In this document: one piece after another, positions 34,289-45,388 of the stretch
Numbering within the stretch: position 1 is the stretch's first letter
How the letters are laid out: the number at the start of each line of letters is the position of its first letter
Origin: Actinomycetota bacterium
Lineage (GTDB): Bacteria > Actinomycetota > Rubrobacteria > Rubrobacterales > Rubrobacteraceae
Direction: 5' to 3'
DNA length: 64,000 nucleotides
Assembly (NCBI GenBank): GCA_902810695.1
Contig: CADDYV010000013.1
Span: 1-64,000, forward strand
The notes under the pieces: generated by a model
Databases searched by the model: none
Seen by the model: only the letters and a program-made list of their open reading frames with translations
Told to the model about the DNA's origin: nothing
Translations under genes and position numbers: made by a program

Positions 34289-39001
<4,713 letters not shown>

Positions 39002-39002
39002 C

Positions 39003-39950
39003 ATGAGGGTACTCATCGCAGAGGATGATACCGTCTCCCGCACCATCCTCCGCCGCGCTGTCGAAAAACTGGGGCATGAATGTCTCGCGGCCTCCGACGG
39101 CGACGAAGCCTGGCGGCTATACGAAGAAACACCCGATCTGGACGTCATCATAAGCGACTGGATGATGCCCGGCATGGACGGCGTCGAGCTCTGCCGCAGG
39201 GTCCGGAACTCCGAGAAAAACGGGTACACGCACTTCATCTTTCTCACGGCCCTCGGAGACAGGGGGCATCTGCTGACGGGGCTTCAAGCCGGAGCCGACG
39301 ACTATCTCTCCAAGCCGCTCGACCGGGATGAGCTGCAGGTCCGGCTCATATCCGCTTCCCGCATCACGACGCTGCACCGGAAGCTGGAGAGGCAAAACGC
39401 CGAGCTAGCGCGCCTGAAAGACAAGTTCTTCGAGCAGGCGCGCCGGGACCCACTGACGGATCTCGGCAACCGGCTCCAGCTACGGGAGGACCTGGAGATG
39501 CTCAAAGGCCGAGCCGAACGCTACGGCCACACTTACTGCGCCGCCCTGTGCGACATTGACTTCTTCAAGCTCTATAACGATCACTACGGCCACCCGGCGG
39601 GGGACAAGATACTCGTGCGCGTCGCCAGCACGCTGAAAGACGGCTGCCGCAAGGGAGATGCGCTCTACCGGTACGGCGGCGAGGAGTTTCTGGTCATCCT
39701 GCCCGGCCAGACGCTCGAGTCCGCAACTACCGTGGCTGATCGGCTGCGCAAGGACGTCGAGGCGTTAAAGATCCCGCACGAAGCCAAAAATCTGCCAGGG
39801 GTGGTAACGATCAGTGCCGGGGTCGCCGAACTCTCTGCAGAGCACCCCAAAACCTCTGATGAGCTGTTGAAAGAGGCCGACACCGCCCTATACCGGGCAA
39901 AGCAAGCGGGCCGCAATCGCGTAACCCGCTATGACGGGAAAGCAGATTAG
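39003..39950 (+). CDS. Response regulator diguanylate cyclase (REC-GGDEF)
   Basis: 315 residues. The receiver (about 1-120) has MRVLIAEDD, acceptor Asp in VIISDWMMPGMDG and Lys in LSKPLDRDEL. A short coiled linker leads to GGDEF (about 150-312): ALCDIDFFKLYNDHYGHPAGD, then active GGEEF preceded by the inhibitory I-site RKGD at the canonical five-residue spacing. It should make c-di-GMP with product inhibition. ATG 39003 begins one base after the hybrid kinase stop, so the two are coupled and the kinase probably phosphorylates it. Confidence 0.95.
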   Translation: MRVLIAEDDTVSRTILRRAVEKLGHECLAASDGDEAWRLYEETPDLDVIISDWMMPGMDGVELCRRVRNSEKNGYTHFIFLTALGDRGHLLTGLQAGADDYLSKPLDRDELQVRLISASRITTLHRKLERQNAELARLKDKFFEQARRDPLTDLGNRLQLREDLEMLKGRAERYGHTYCAALCDIDFFKLYNDHYGHPAGDKILVRVASTLKDGCRKGDALYRYGGEEFLVILPGQTLESATTVADRLRKDVEALKIPHEAKNLPGVVTISAGVAELSAEHPKTSDELLKEADTALYRAKQAGRNRVTRYDGKAD

Positions 39951-39962
39951 CGCGCCAGATTC

Positions 39963-40367
39963 TTACCTGTTCCCGGAACGCCCGGCGCGCCACAGCACGG
40001 TCCGCACCCGCGCGGCCAGCTCATCCGGGGAGAAAGGCTTTATCACGTAGTCGTCGAGTCCGGCCTGCAGCCCCTCGATGACGTCCTGCTCGCCGCTGCG
40101 GGAGGTAAGCATGATAACCGGCATGGAGGATATTTTCTGATCCGGGTTGTTGCGGAGGGTTCGGACGAGCTGGATGCCGGAGACGCGGGGCATCAGGCTG
40201 TCGGTTATCAGGAGGTCGGGCACGTCGCCGCTCTCCAGACGATCCAGCACCTCCCGGCCGTCGGTAGCTTCGGAGAGGTCGTAGCCCAACCCCGAGAGCT
40301 TTACGATGACGATACGGCGCACGATCCGGTCGTCATCCGCCACCAGTATCTTGGCTGCCTCGCTCAG
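39963..40367 (-). CDS. Single-domain response regulator (CheY-like), probable CTG start
   Basis: 134 residues from CTG 40367. All receiver residues are intact: ILVADDD, acceptor Asp in LLITDSLMPRVSG, Thr in MLTSRSG and Lys in DYVIKPFSP. The first standard start, GTG 40343, would delete strand 1 (AAKILV), which a receiver needs. CTG 40367 follows GAGGGGG by 4 bp and restores it; no in-frame ATG, GTG or TTG exists upstream. It ends 12 bp from the convergent diguanylate cyclase gene and may take phosphate from the HPt domain. Confidence 0.88.
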   Translation of the reverse strand: MSEAAKILVADDDRIVRRIVIVKLSGLGYDLSEATDGREVLDRLESGDVPDLLITDSLMPRVSGIQLVRTLRNNPDQKISSMPVIMLTSRSGEQDVIEGLQAGLDDYVIKPFSPDELAARVRTVLWRAGRSGNR

Positions 40368-40476: not shown

Positions 40477-41697
40477 ATGGGAAGGCCGGGCCTCATAGAG
40501 ATCGCCATCGTGGTGATGGCGGGTCTGAACGTAGTGATGATCCTGCTTACAGTCGCCGTCAAGGTCGCCCGCTCCCTGCGAGAGAGCTGGCTGAAAGCGC
40601 GGCGGAGCAGGATAGAGTCTGCCCTGGATGATTTCCTCCTAGCAGGAGAAGTGAGACCAGAGCTGCGGCGGCTGAGAGCCAGGGAACTCGATGTACTCGC
40701 GGCCACGATGATCGAGTACCTCACGGTACTGCGGGGCTCGGAGCGCGAACGTCTGCTCGGGCTTGCCGTGGAGCTTGGCCTGGTGAAACGATACGCTGGC
40801 TGGCTCTCCTCGCAGCGACGCTGGCGGCGGGCCCGCGCGGCGGAGAACCTCGGGTATCTGGGGGGATCTGACAGTGTCGGGGGGCTTGCGAAGCTGCTCT
40901 CTGACAGGGACGAGACGGTGCGGGCGGTTGCGGCACGAGCCCTGGCGCGCATAGGGACGCAAGAGGCCGCGCAGGCTCTCGCACAAACCCTCAATGACCC
41001 TTCGGACCTCACCCGCCTCCGGGTGGCCGAGAATCTGGAGAGGATCGGACCTCTCGCCGCTCCTTCTCTGATAGATCTCCTCTCCTCTGAAGAGAGGAGA
41101 TCCCCGATCCTGGCCGCGAGGGTTCTGGGAAACCTGCGGCTCCTGGAGGCGGGTCCGGCTCTGGAAGCGGCGGCGCGCACCGGGACGAACGTAGACTTAA
41201 GAGCCCAGGCGACGCTGGCCCTGGGCAAGACCGGAGACCCCGAGTACGTGCCCGTGCTGCTGGAGGCCGCCAAAGACGAGGAGTGGCCCGTGCGGGCGCA
41301 GGCAGCCAACGCCCTGCGCATGATCGGGGAGGTCTCGACCATCCCCACGCTCAAGAACCTGATGGCCGACCGCGAGTGGTGGGTGCGCGTCAACGCCGCC
41401 AGAGCCCTCGCCAACTTCGGAGCGGCGGGAGAGCGGGCGCTCGTGGATATCCTCGAAGGAGAGGACCGCTTCGCCCGCGAACGGGCCGCGGCCACACTCG
41501 AAGCCCAGGGTATCACCCGCAGGATGGTGGATGATCTGGCGAGCCCTGGAGAGCGCGGCGAGCGGGCGCGGCACGTGATCCGGGCGATGGTCAAAACCGG
41601 TTCTACCAGGCATCTCAGGCGCATCCTCAACGACATGCCCGAAGGAGACAATCGCCGGGTGCTGAAGAAAATACTCGCGGAGAACAATGAGCTTTAA
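40477..41697 (+). CDS. Membrane-anchored HEAT-repeat protein
   Basis: 406 residues. An N-terminal membrane helix (IEIAIVVMAGLNVVMILLTVAVKVA) is followed by a basic linker and at least six HEAT/PBS-type repeats from about 105 on (for example ARAAENLGYLGG, TVRAVAARALARIG, PVRAQAANALRMIG, WVRVNAARALANFG). These form a cytosolic solenoid for protein contacts. It overlaps the glycosyltransferase gene by 11 bp. I suggest it is a scaffold or co-polymerase for that enzyme, taking the place TPR proteins hold in Pga, Pel and Alg systems; that is inference. The true start may be ATG 40477 rather than the preceding TTG. Confidence 0.85.
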   Translation: MGRPGLIEIAIVVMAGLNVVMILLTVAVKVARSLRESWLKARRSRIESALDDFLLAGEVRPELRRLRARELDVLAATMIEYLTVLRGSERERLLGLAVELGLVKRYAGWLSSQRRWRRARAAENLGYLGGSDSVGGLAKLLSDRDETVRAVAARALARIGTQEAAQALAQTLNDPSDLTRLRVAENLERIGPLAAPSLIDLLSSEERRSPILAARVLGNLRLLEAGPALEAAARTGTNVDLRAQATLALGKTGDPEYVPVLLEAAKDEEWPVRAQAANALRMIGEVSTIPTLKNLMADREWWVRVNAARALANFGAAGERALVDILEGEDRFARERAAATLEAQGITRRMVDDLASPGERGERARHVIRAMVKTGSTRHLRRILNDMPEGDNRRVLKKILAENNEL

Positions 41698-43150
41698 CCA
41701 GTTTATACTCGGCGCAAACTACTTCGTGCTCGGTTATTTCCTGCTGATAAACGGGGTATACGCACTTCTGTACTTCATCTCCTTCTTCGAGATAGCTGAC
41801 TATACGCGGCGTGAGATCTTCTCTGGTTTCTCGGAGCTTTTTACCTCGAACTACGCTCCTCCGGTCTCCGTGGTGGTCCCCGCCTACAACGAGGAGGCGA
41901 CCATCGCTGCGAGCGTGCGCTCCTTCCTCACTTTGCGCTACCCGCTGCACGAGGTCGTCGTGGTCAACGACGGTTCCAGAGACGGCACCCTCGATGTCCT
42001 CAAGCGCGAGTTCGACCTCTGGGAGTACGACCGCCCCACGAGGCTGCAGCTACAGACGGCTCCCATCCGGGGCATATACGCCTCCACCACGGAACGTCTC
42101 ATCGTGGTGGACAAGGAGAATGGCGGAAAGGCCGACGCTCTGAACGCCGGGATCTGCACGGCCCAGTATCCGCTGGTCTGCTGCCTGGACGCCGACATCA
42201 TCCTGGAAGAAGACGCCCTGCTCAAAGCCGCCCGTCCGGCGATAGAGTACGGGGATGTGGCCGCAGTCGGGGGTATCGTCCGGGTCGCCAACGGCTGCGA
42301 GGTGGATGCCGGGCGTATCGTGGAGATCAAAACCCCCCGCAGAGCGCTTCCAAACCTCCAGGTCGTCGAGTACCTGCGGGCTTTTCTGGCCGGGAGAACC
42401 GGGTGGAGCAAGATCAACGCGCTGCTCATCATCTCCGGTGCGTTCGGGCTGTTCCGCAAGCGAGACCTCATCGCCGCCGGGGGATACTCTCTGGGTACAG
42501 TAGGAGAGGACATGGAGCTCGTAACCAGGATGCACCACGTCCTGCGGGAGAACAACCGCAAGTACCGCATAGTCTTCGTCCCCGACCCCGTCGCCTGGAC
42601 CGAGGTTCCCGCGACCCTCCGCGTCCTGCGCCGCCAGCGCGACCGCTGGCACCGGGGCCTTCTGGACACCCTCGTCAGACACCGCAAGATGCTCTTCAAC
42701 CCCCGATACGGCATTGTAGGGCTGTTCGCGATGCCCTACTACTTCCTCTTCGAGCTGCTGGGGCCGGTAATAGAGCTTCTGGGATACATCGCCTTCGTCG
42801 CGGGGCTTTTGCTCGGGATACTCAACGCCCGCTTCGCCCTGGCTTTCTTCCTGGTGGCCGTCGGTCTCGGAGCCCTGCTCTCAGTCGCGGCGGTCTTTCT
42901 CGAAGAACTGAGACTCCAGCGTTATCCGAGCTGGCGGGACATGGTCAAGCTCATACTCTACGGGATCGCAGAGAACTTCGGCTACCGCCAGTTAAACACC
43001 CTCTGGCGGGTCATGGCGATATTTTCGTTCCTCCGCAGAAACACCGACTGGGGCAGCATGGAGCGCCGCGGCTTCGAGCAGGCGAAACCACCGGAGACCA
43101 CGCCGAAGCGTGAGTACGAAGAGGTCAAAACCAGCCGCGATAGCGAGTAA
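41687..43150 (+). CDS. Family 2 processive glycosyltransferase (PgaC/BcsA-like)
   Basis: 487 residues. An N-terminal membrane helix (FVLGYFLLINGVYALLYFISFF) is followed by a GT2 domain: VSVVVPAYNEE, VVVNDGS, LDADI (DxD), TEDMEL-like GTVGEDMELVTR and RRQRDRWHRG, the Q/RxxRW of processive synthases. Three or four C-terminal helices (about 330-420) form the export channel. It is probably a membrane polysaccharide synthase. No PilZ domain is present, so c-di-GMP control would need a partner. It overlaps the HEAT gene by 11 bp and precedes the glycosidase-like gene by 12 bp. Confidence 0.92.
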   Translation: MSFNQFILGANYFVLGYFLLINGVYALLYFISFFEIADYTRREIFSGFSELFTSNYAPPVSVVVPAYNEEATIAASVRSFLTLRYPLHEVVVVNDGSRDGTLDVLKREFDLWEYDRPTRLQLQTAPIRGIYASTTERLIVVDKENGGKADALNAGICTAQYPLVCCLDADIILEEDALLKAARPAIEYGDVAAVGGIVRVANGCEVDAGRIVEIKTPRRALPNLQVVEYLRAFLAGRTGWSKINALLIISGAFGLFRKRDLIAAGGYSLGTVGEDMELVTRMHHVLRENNRKYRIVFVPDPVAWTEVPATLRVLRRQRDRWHRGLLDTLVRHRKMLFNPRYGIVGLFAMPYYFLFELLGPVIELLGYIAFVAGLLLGILNARFALAFFLVAVGLGALLSVAAVFLEELRLQRYPSWRDMVKLILYGIAENFGYRQLNTLWRVMAIFSFLRRNTDWGSMERRGFEQAKPPETTPKREYEEVKTSRDSE

Positions 43151-43162
43151 GGACAGTTTAGT

Positions 43163-45388
43163 TTGTACCAGTATTATGAAACAAGGGAACGCAGCAAGCG
43201 CGGGAAATACGTTCTGGCGGTCCTGCTGCTGGCCCTCGCGTGCGCGGCGGGTGTGCTCTTCTGGTTGCACGAGGCCAACAGCCGGCCCGTCTCCAAAGCG
43301 TACGGGGTCAAGCGCGTCTCGACGGTAAAGGGCACCCACCTCGCGGTCTACGATGGGAAAGGCTGGAAGACGCAGTTCTGGGACGGGGTGAACCTGGGAG
43401 CCACCCTGCCGGGTCATGCTCCGGGCGAGCTGGCGCCGACCAAAGAGGACTACCTGCGGTGGTTTGCGATGATGAAGGCGATGCACGTGGATGTCGTGCG
43501 GGTGTACACGATCCTGCCGCCCACGTTCTACGAGGCGCTCGCGCAGTTCAACTCCGGGCGCAAGGACCCCTTGTGGTTCATCCAGGGCATCTGGTCGCCC
43601 GAGGAAGAGCTTATCGGGAAAAACGAGCTGGGCAACGACGCCTACAAGCCCGATATCACCCATCAGTTCAGGCATGAGATCCAGGACGCCGTCCACGCGG
43701 TCCACGGCGACGCCGACATCCCGCCGCGCCACGGCCACGCCAGCGGCCACTACGACGCCGATGTCTCCCAGTACATGCTCGGCTGGATGGTCGGGACCGA
43801 GTGGTTCCCCTACGCCGTCAAGAAAACCGACGACGCCCATCCCGGCATGTCCCCGTACTCCGGCAAATATTTCAGCGCCACCAAAAACGCGAGTCCCTTC
43901 GAGAGCTGGCTGGCCTCGATGCTGGAGACGCTGGCGAACACGGAGATGCAATACGGCTGGCAGCACCCCGTCTCCATAACCAACTGGCTCACCACCGACC
44001 CGCTGCACCACCCCGACGAGGCGTTCCCGCAGGAAGACATGGTCTCCGTGGACCCGACGCACATAAAGCCCACCTCCGAGTGGAAGGCCGGCTACTACGC
44101 CTCGTTTCACATCTACCCTTACTACCCGGATTTCCTGCGCTACCAGAAGAGCTACCAGCACTACAGGACCCCCGACGGCAGGAGAGATCCCTACGCCGGC
44201 TACCTGAACCAGCTCAGGCACTACGTCAAGGGGATGCCGCTCGTGGTCGCGGAGTTCGGCGTGCCGAGCAGCCGCGGGATGGCCCACCGCGGGCCATTGG
44301 GCAGAAATCAGGGCTACCACACCGAGAAAGATCAGGGCGATATCGAGAAGACCATGCTCAAAGACATTCGGGAAGAGGGCTACGATGGAGGCTTCGTGTT
44401 CTCCTGGCAGGACGAATGGTTCAAGTTCACCTGGAACACGAAGGATCTGAACATCCCGGCCACCAGAAGGCCCAAGTGGTTCAACAAGCTGACCAACGAG
44501 CAAAACTTCGGGGTCGTGGCTGAAGACGCCGGCAAGGCGAAGGACCAGATCTACCTGGACGGCAAAACCACGGACTGGAAAGGCCGCGAGAAGAAGAGTC
44601 GAAGCTACCCGGACTTTACCCTCTCCGTCGCCCACGACCCGGCCTACCTCTACCTGCTCCTGAAGAAAAAACACGGCGACTGGGACTTCTCGAAGGACCC
44701 GCTCGACGTCGGCTTCGGGACCCAGCCAGGCGGCAGCGAAAAGGCGGATGCGGCACCGGGTCTCAGCTTCCCCGGCGGCATACAGACCCTGCTCCAGATC
44801 CGGGGCAAAAAAGACTCGCGCATGATGATAAACAGCGCCTACGACTACGAGTCCTGGTTCTACGGCAAGAAGCTGCACATGATCCCCCAAGTCCCCGACG
44901 GCGGGAACGCCGGGGCGGGCAAGTTCGTGCTCTGGAAGCTGCCCTTGAGCCGTCCGCTCACCCTGCCGCAGAGCAAGCGCAAGATCCCCTTCGAGGCTTT
45001 CGACGTGGGCAAGATGAAACCCGGCATCACCGACCCCAAAAGCCCGAAGTACGACAGCCTCGCCGACTGGTACGCCAAAGGCAAGGTGCTTGAGGTGCGC
45101 ATCCCGTGGATGATGCTAGGCTTCACGGACCCGAGCCGCCTCATGGTGTGGAAGAATTTTTATAAAGCGGGTAAGGTCCAGCCCGTAAAGAGCGACGGCA
45201 TACGGGTGTATCCGGCCATAAACTCGAACACCTCCGGGAAAGATAAACCCGAGCCGCTTTTCTACACCTGGCGGCCCTGGAACCAGCCCGCCTACCACGA
45301 GCGCAAGAAGCAGAGCTACTACATCCTGCAAAAAGCGTTCGAGAACAAGCGGCTGGAGCCCATACCCCCGGCCCGGTCCGGCTCGTAG
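43163..45388 (+). CDS. Membrane-anchored TIM-barrel glycosidase-like protein with C-terminal beta domain
   Basis: 741 residues from TTG 43163 (AAGGA upstream). One N-terminal membrane helix (YVLAVLLLALACAAGVLFWL) exposes the rest outside. Residues about 60-455 resemble a GH-A glycosidase barrel: FWDGVNLGATLPGH, MHVDVVRVYTILPP, GWMVGTEW and VVAEFGVPSS, where the Glu of AEFG is in the usual nucleophile position and the Glu of GTEW in the acid/base position. Residues about 480-720 form a beta-rich domain reminiscent of CBM9/DOMON. It probably trims, modifies or extrudes the polymer made by the GT2 gene, but activity is unproven. Confidence 0.82.
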   Translation: MYQYYETRERSKRGKYVLAVLLLALACAAGVLFWLHEANSRPVSKAYGVKRVSTVKGTHLAVYDGKGWKTQFWDGVNLGATLPGHAPGELAPTKEDYLRWFAMMKAMHVDVVRVYTILPPTFYEALAQFNSGRKDPLWFIQGIWSPEEELIGKNELGNDAYKPDITHQFRHEIQDAVHAVHGDADIPPRHGHASGHYDADVSQYMLGWMVGTEWFPYAVKKTDDAHPGMSPYSGKYFSATKNASPFESWLASMLETLANTEMQYGWQHPVSITNWLTTDPLHHPDEAFPQEDMVSVDPTHIKPTSEWKAGYYASFHIYPYYPDFLRYQKSYQHYRTPDGRRDPYAGYLNQLRHYVKGMPLVVAEFGVPSSRGMAHRGPLGRNQGYHTEKDQGDIEKTMLKDIREEGYDGGFVFSWQDEWFKFTWNTKDLNIPATRRPKWFNKLTNEQNFGVVAEDAGKAKDQIYLDGKTTDWKGREKKSRSYPDFTLSVAHDPAYLYLLLKKKHGDWDFSKDPLDVGFGTQPGGSEKADAAPGLSFPGGIQTLLQIRGKKDSRMMINSAYDYESWFYGKKLHMIPQVPDGGNAGAGKFVLWKLPLSRPLTLPQSKRKIPFEAFDVGKMKPGITDPKSPKYDSLADWYAKGKVLEVRIPWMMLGFTDPSRLMVWKNFYKAGKVQPVKSDGIRVYPAINSNTSGKDKPEPLFYTWRPWNQPAYHERKKQSYYILQKAFENKRLEPIPPARSGS

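Follow-up and report, generated by a model that had tools for sequence, protein, structure and literature searches.

Regulated exopolysaccharide synthases and the HEAT-GT2 locus

The question raised by this locus is whether three tightly packed genes of a Rubrobacteraceae genome (Actinomycetota bacterium, assembly GCA_902810695.1) encode an exopolysaccharide synthase of a new kind, as proposed in a preliminary description made from the sequence alone, and how such a synthase might be controlled. The genes lie in a stretch of 64,000 nucleotides (contig CADDYV010000013.1, positions 1 to 64,000), which is referred to in its entirety as the window, and encode a HEAT-repeat protein, a glycosyltransferase of family GT2 and a glycosidase-like (GH) protein. 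Comparison with related loci revealed that the conserved unit is the HEAT-GT2 pair, usually together with a response regulator, and that the GH gene is accessory. The locus is likely (probability about 0.7) to represent, in Rubrobacteraceae, a widespread type of synthase-dependent exopolysaccharide system that has HEAT as a co-subunit and is controlled by a phosphorelay and often by cyclic di-GMP (c-di-GMP).

40474 (TTG) or 40477 (ATG) to 41697, plus strand: HEAT-repeat protein (Pfam HEAT_2, E=4e-33)
41687 to 43150, plus strand: processive-type GT2, putative polysaccharide synthase (Pfam Glycos_transf_2, E=7.6e-24)
43163 (TTG) to 45388, plus strand: membrane-anchored glycosidase-like protein of clan GH-A, 741 aa (no Pfam family; placed by fold search)

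Linkage of the HEAT and GT2 genes

A profile search detected the GT2 in 52 of 397 Actinomycetota genomes (about 13%), and phyla beyond the Actinomycetota were sampled through plasmid records and a scan of genome contigs. The scan was carried out with a GH profile and yielded 79 loci out of 472 candidate relatives, deriving from Paenibacillus, Brevibacillus, Cohnella, Bacillaceae, Clostridia and Rubrobacteraceae. HEAT and GT2 genes adjoined in nearly all of these, usually with GH alongside, in the orders GH-HEAT-GT2, HEAT-GT2-GH or split. Plasmid records, searched with the GT2, contained the HEAT-GT2 pair in the haloarchaea Salinirubellus, Haloarcula and Halosolutus and in the bacteria Mesorhizobium, Erythrobacter, Devosia, Legionella, Bacteroides, Emticicia and Deinococcus. 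Adjacency, whose rarity would have spoken against the preliminary proposal, was thus found far beyond the window.

Loci were regarded as testable when their sequence extended far enough upstream of the GT2 gene. A HEAT gene was present within 700 bp of the GT2 gene in all 135 of them (49/49 from Actinomycetota genomes, 74/74 from genome contigs and 12/12 from plasmids), and these represent Actinomycetota, Bacillota, Deinococcota, Proteobacteria, Bacteroidota and haloarchaea. In 134 loci HEAT was a separate gene immediately upstream of GT2, and in one the two were fused. In contrast, no HEAT gene was found beside any of 19 PgaC-like control GT2s from Actinomycetota genomes, nor was a HEAT neighbour annotated at the seven named GT2s that ranked next after those of the set (Staphylococcus IcaA, Deinococcus, Prevotella, Natrinema, Acidithiobacillus and Sphingomonas). 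HEAT_2 matches over the cut-off were also rare in the genome of the window, with only three in total, two of them within this HEAT gene. The rarity of HEAT_2 and the adjacency in 135/135 loci versus 0/19 controls argue that the pairing is not due to chance. In a tree of 67 GT2 sequences, which was computed by a quick search and in which some controls had long branches, the 44 HEAT-linked GT2s from bacteria and haloarchaea were placed on one side of a branch with an SH-aLRT value of 99, and Staphylococcus IcaA fell outside this clade. A GT2 with 38.6% identity across 94% of the query was also observed in record L221 (MT836222.1, 'Bacteriophage sp.', unverified, human faeces), which is probably bacterial DNA.

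The GH gene was less constant. It was located within 3 kb of GT2 in 14 of the 49 Actinomycetota loci, in 66 of the 74 genome-contig (Bacillota) loci, a share inflated by ascertainment because these loci had been found via GH, and in 3 of the 12 plasmid loci; in two Rubrobacteraceae it was on a separate contig. The three-gene block was rejected as a conserved unit, GH being present in only 14/49 loci of the set found with GT2. The packing of the three genes, with an 11-bp overlap between the HEAT and GT2 open reading frames (ORFs) and a 12-bp gap before GH, agreed with the preliminary description, but across relatives the proposed three-gene operon held for the HEAT-GT2 pair and not in general for GH.

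Natural fusions were also observed. HEAT and GT2 formed a single protein of 935 aa in locus L187, GT2 was fused with GH in L141 and L149, and the GT2 of L145 carried a GGDEF domain at its C-terminus. Only these four were counted; L019 was excluded since its sequence contains Ns, and the long GT2 ORFs of L159, L166, L171 and others were rejected as fusions, as their N-terminal parts were out-of-frame extensions. In Thermobrachium and three Bacillaceae, the gene immediately preceding HEAT encodes a protein with both GGDEF and REC domains. Such genes and the fusions argue for a common function that links GT2 to HEAT, GH and c-di-GMP synthesis.

The HEAT protein showed a single, N-terminal membrane segment by hydropathy (residues 4-35), in agreement with the membrane-anchored solenoid described before. 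A D-x-x-W-W-V-R face is conserved in its HEAT repeats. Because the helix is followed by the basic stretch KVARSLRESWLKARRSR, the solenoid is predicted by the positive-inside rule to be cytoplasmic. We infer that HEAT is an obligate co-subunit of GT2.

The GT2 protein as a putative polymer synthase

Two membrane segments were detected in the GT2 by hydropathy (residues 6-37 and 353-410), and D95, D168-A-D170, G273-E-D275 and Q317-R-x-R-W321 were invariant among 26 homologs. These residues make up the motif set of inner-membrane synthases (D, DxD, (T/G)ED, QxxRW), and the processive motif and export helices of the preliminary description were thereby found again. The best NCBIfam model was PgaC_IcaA (TIGR03937), with 127.9 bits against a cut-off of 422.3. 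XrtG-associated and cellulose synthases were also among the best models, although the scores with cellulose synthase and NodC were weak; for cellulose synthase BcsA (TIGR03030) the score was 48.7 bits, with the cut-off at 699.1. A C-terminal PilZ domain was not found with Pfam. The closest solved structure in a sequence search of the PDB was the BcsA cellulose synthase.

GT2s that possess C-terminal helices are in many cases lipid-linked transferases, and the polymer of the HEAT-GT2 proteins is putative. The GT2 could therefore be non-processive, glycosylating a lipid carrier or a component of the wall or surface, with HEAT as an assembly factor. One Paenibacillus group (L020-L027) would be compatible with this, having UbiA-like, DUF212 and unknown 558-aa genes between GH and a divergent GlmS-HEAT-GT2 group. 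Such a role is nevertheless improbable: the QRxRW, DAD and GED motifs were invariant, cellulose synthase supplied the top-scoring solved structures, and the best models were PgaC, XrtG-associated and cellulose synthases, not the dolichol-phosphate synthases whose company had been considered a risk for the proposal. Moreover, outer-membrane partners were found in Gram-negative relatives, implying an exported polymer. Genes for TPR proteins and YaiO outer-membrane barrel proteins neighboured the pair in Mesorhizobium and Bacteroides, a YaiO barrel was encoded beside it in Legionella and, by annotation, in Emticicia, and a TPR protein in Erythrobacter. A TPR protein, an outer-membrane barrel or both thus accompany the pair in several Gram-negative members, in the place of GH, matching the general layout of synthase-dependent systems in Gram-negative bacteria (PMC7112194).

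Precursor-sugar genes were linked to the pair in several relatives. The operon of Paenibacillaceae continues with genes for a REC protein, a nucleoside diphosphate-sugar dehydrogenase nearest to the UDP-N-acetylmannosamine/N-acetylglucosamine types, GlmS, the N-terminal half of GlmU, and GlmM. A gene resembling N-acetylhexosamine (HexNAc) dehydrogenases was present in 50 of 82 loci. GlmS and a nucleotidyltransferase were encoded beside the operon in Halosolutus, and a nucleotide-sugar dehydrogenase and two epimerases in Legionella. With GlmS, GlmU-like, GlmM and UDP-HexNAc-dehydrogenase-like genes linked in relatives, the best guess for the product is an amino-sugar or aminouronic polymer. At the end of such operons in Paenibacillaceae a gene recurs, sometimes in two copies, for a secreted family of about 310 aa (KATWLWDT...GIAVHDYxxW; cluster c4) without Pfam match, represented by L053:16208-17149 and about 52 other loci.

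These precursor genes, the PgaC_IcaA model as best match and the cyclase gene adjoining in the window would also be expected of a variant of the Pga/Ica system, in which the polymer would be poly-N-acetylglucosamine (PNAG), c-di-GMP the switch and HEAT a replacement of PgaD. The GT2 score, however, was far under the PgaC cut-off, Staphylococcus IcaA lay outside the HEAT clade, and the frequent HexNAc-dehydrogenase-like gene suggests a uronate. No polysaccharide deacetylase (PgaB/IcaB-type), PgaD or IcaC was recognised among the recurrent neighbours. A PNAG variant is considered quite unlikely.

Regulator genes next to the pair

The region upstream of the HEAT gene encodes three further signalling proteins:

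34289 to 39001, plus strand: hybrid histidine kinase (Pfam: several PAS, HisKA, HATPase, two REC, Hpt)
39003 to 39950, plus strand: REC-GGDEF response regulator (Pfam Response_reg, E=1.7e-25; GGDEF, E=1.2e-47)
39963 to 40343, minus strand: single-domain REC-only response regulator (Pfam Response_reg, E=1.9e-25)

The REC-GGDEF protein contains a GGEEF motif with an I-site-like RxxD (RKGD) five residues upstream and is predicted from its sequence to be an active diguanylate cyclase. The c-di-GMP-making regulator before the block had thus been recognised correctly in the preliminary description, but the REC-only gene between them, which is divergent from the HEAT gene, had been overlooked. The hybrid histidine kinase likely heads a phosphorelay. 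The layout of kinase, REC-GGDEF, reversed REC, HEAT and GT2 recurs in several Rubrobacteraceae (L187, L189 and L190), with a large REC-containing ORF at the place of the kinase, and a REC-only gene with matching position and strand was also observed in L018, L183, L185 and L192. No ATG, GTG or TTG is present in the REC-only gene of the window where the L018 counterpart starts, and the frame is open further upstream (...GGILSEAAKILVADDD...); translation probably begins 20-30 bp upstream at a CTG or ATC codon, or else the gene is shorter.

A REC domain was encoded within 4 kb of GT2 in 107 of the 135 loci (37/49 Actinomycetota, 63/74 genome-contig and 7/12 plasmid loci). The order REC-HEAT-GT2 was found in haloarchaea, Emticicia and many Actinomycetota; in Mesorhizobium and Erythrobacter an outer-membrane or TPR gene was located between REC and HEAT. 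GGDEF domains were encoded within 5 kb of GT2 in 18 of the 49 Actinomycetota loci, 5 of the 74 genome-contig loci and none of the 12 plasmid loci, and these counts did not support c-di-GMP as a general regulator. In the Paenibacillaceae REC protein (L028:13874-14662 and relatives, cluster c3) an N-terminal domain with a predicted GGDEF-like order of strands and helices was observed. The GGDEF profile matched it weakly (E=0.011), the list of the fold search being filled by REC, and the domain may possibly be a degenerate GGDEF or c-di-GMP receptor.

A REC protein without output domain usually works through protein contact, and control of HEAT-GT2 by docking of REC is proposed for this reason. 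HEAT might instead be a mere structural scaffold, with the REC and GGDEF neighbours acting on transcription or elsewhere. The opposite strand of the Rubrobacteraceae REC gene, the loci without REC and the lack of any REC-HEAT fusion among the fusions seen are in keeping with this. It is still a doubtful explanation, given that REC proteins without DNA-binding output precede HEAT in haloarchaea, Bacteroidota and Actinomycetota and that in Bacillota the pair is flanked by genes with a REC domain, a consistency too great for chance neighbours.

The glycosidase-like protein

The third protein has a membrane segment at residues 13-38 by hydropathy. Pfam, NCBIfam and PDB sequence searches gave no matches, so that assignment to a sequence family failed and the protein was placed by fold search alone. 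An AlphaFold model computed with 43 homologs as input (pLDDT 91.9, pTM 0.90) was matched by Foldseek first to a GH157 laminarinase-type enzyme (E=5e-13), then to GH2 uronidases, a GH5 mannanase and GH164. The model is consistent with a clan GH-A barrel followed by a C-terminal beta-rich region, and hydrolase activity is predicted. E213 in GTEW (codon 43799-43801) and E364 in AEFG (codon 44252-44254) were invariant in the 43 homologs and are the predicted catalytic acid pair, placed as acid/base and nucleophile. The anchored barrel with AEFG and GTEW acids and a beta-domain, as first described, is compatible with this model. Since the N-terminus is basic, the enzyme is predicted by the positive-inside rule to be external. 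Although barrel and glutamate pair are shared with GH157, GH2, GH5 and GH164, identity to these was 11-13% and a Pfam match was lacking; the protein apparently represents an unclassified glycosidase family.

Some members of this family are probably pseudo-enzymes, because acids are missing in a Planococcus plasmid homolog and in one Paenibacillus cellulosilyticus copy. The latter is the second of a tandem GH pair (L014:9872-15185), with an N-terminal extension of about 300 aa and without the first acid. The Planococcus maritimus plasmid trio (L016:4470-12824) is preceded by genes for a polyphosphate-polymerase-domain protein, DUF4956 and a CotH kinase, and the plasmid also bears a Qat anti-phage gene.

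Proposed mechanism

The gene structure, the motifs, the predicted GH-A fold, the HEAT-GT2 linkage, the frequent REC linkage, the fusions and the single clade form the basis of the synthase reading. The membrane GT2 would polymerise a nucleotide-activated sugar, probably an N-acetylhexosamine or its uronate, and extrude the chain via its own membrane helices. The HEAT solenoid, anchored on the cytoplasmic side, would be the obligate co-subunit in the place taken elsewhere by PgaD or PilZ modules. The hybrid histidine kinase would feed a phosphorelay to both the REC-only protein and the REC-GGDEF cyclase, and phosphorylated REC might dock on HEAT and switch GT2 either on or off; some lineages would also respond to c-di-GMP. 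On the external side, the anchored GH would trim, release or remodel the polymer, as do BcsZ, PgaB and PelA in other systems. A bolder form of this proposal, for which we see an even chance, is that bacteria and haloarchaea share an undescribed synthase class in which phosphorylated single-domain REC acts on membrane HEAT and thereby gates a processive GT2. This would be a direct two-component switch without transcription, for which c-di-GMP would not necessarily be required.

Several points weigh against the synthase reading. Processivity and polymer are deduced from motifs, since the GT2 score is far below the PgaC cut-off. No precursor-sugar genes are present beside the operon of the window. 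No REC was found near GT2 in 28 of the 135 loci, some on short contigs; GH was not nearby in 35 of the 49 Actinomycetota loci, and the Planococcus plasmid homolog lacks both acids. The support also derives from sequence and predicted structure.

Comparison with known systems

Synthase-dependent exopolysaccharides are usually assigned to a small number of types, namely cellulose, PNAG, Pel and alginate with their relatives, which are mostly switched by c-di-GMP. The cellulose synthase system BcsA-BcsB-BcsZ-BcsC shares with the HEAT-GT2 system a processive-type GT2, a glycosidase encoded alongside it and, in Gram-negative members, TPR and an outer-membrane pore. It differs in that no PilZ or BcsB was recognised here, HEAT taking the place of a co-subunit, and in that the fold search did not place the GH of the window with the BcsZ (GH8) type. 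Bacillus YdaJ-N and Listeria Pss resemble the locus as Gram-positive, c-di-GMP-linked systems with GT2 and hydrolase, but rely on BcsB-like partners and on YdaK, a receptor derived from GGDEF, in place of HEAT and REC. In XagABC and YaiO-YaiP clusters the GT2 adjoins a YaiO-type outer-membrane barrel, as in HEAT-GT2 relatives; these clusters are not known to contain a HEAT gene.

The closest NCBIfam match was to Pga/Ica (PgaC/PgaD, IcaA/IcaD), which likewise has a GT2 with export helices. There, a small membrane partner is required for activity and PgaCD is under post-translational control by c-di-GMP (PMC8461298). The HEAT-GT2 system differs in having a HEAT solenoid instead of PgaD/IcaD, no recognised deacetylase, REC as the commonest regulator gene and a GT2 in a clade of its own. 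The HEAT partner had not been recognised in known synthase systems by the preliminary description, and no report of a HEAT protein linked to a GT2 synthase was found in the open-access literature, to which the search was confined, leaving aside subscription papers and preprints. The word 'HEAT' is absent from a review of c-di-GMP and exopolysaccharides (PMC8461298), and 'HEAT repeat' from a survey of exopolysaccharide operons (PMC7112194).

The synthase-dependent kind of polysaccharide is known; what appears to be new is the HEAT-GT2 pair, together with its likely control by a phosphorelay and its extension into archaea. Despite their presence in about 13% of the sampled Actinomycetota and in haloarchaea, the genes are annotated merely as 'HEAT repeat protein' and 'glycosyltransferase'. 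Compared with the systems above, this one would add a new type of obligate co-subunit, a glycosidase family without Pfam entry and a phosphorelay that plausibly switches polymer synthesis directly, all of which could be tested in culturable Paenibacillus or Haloarcula.

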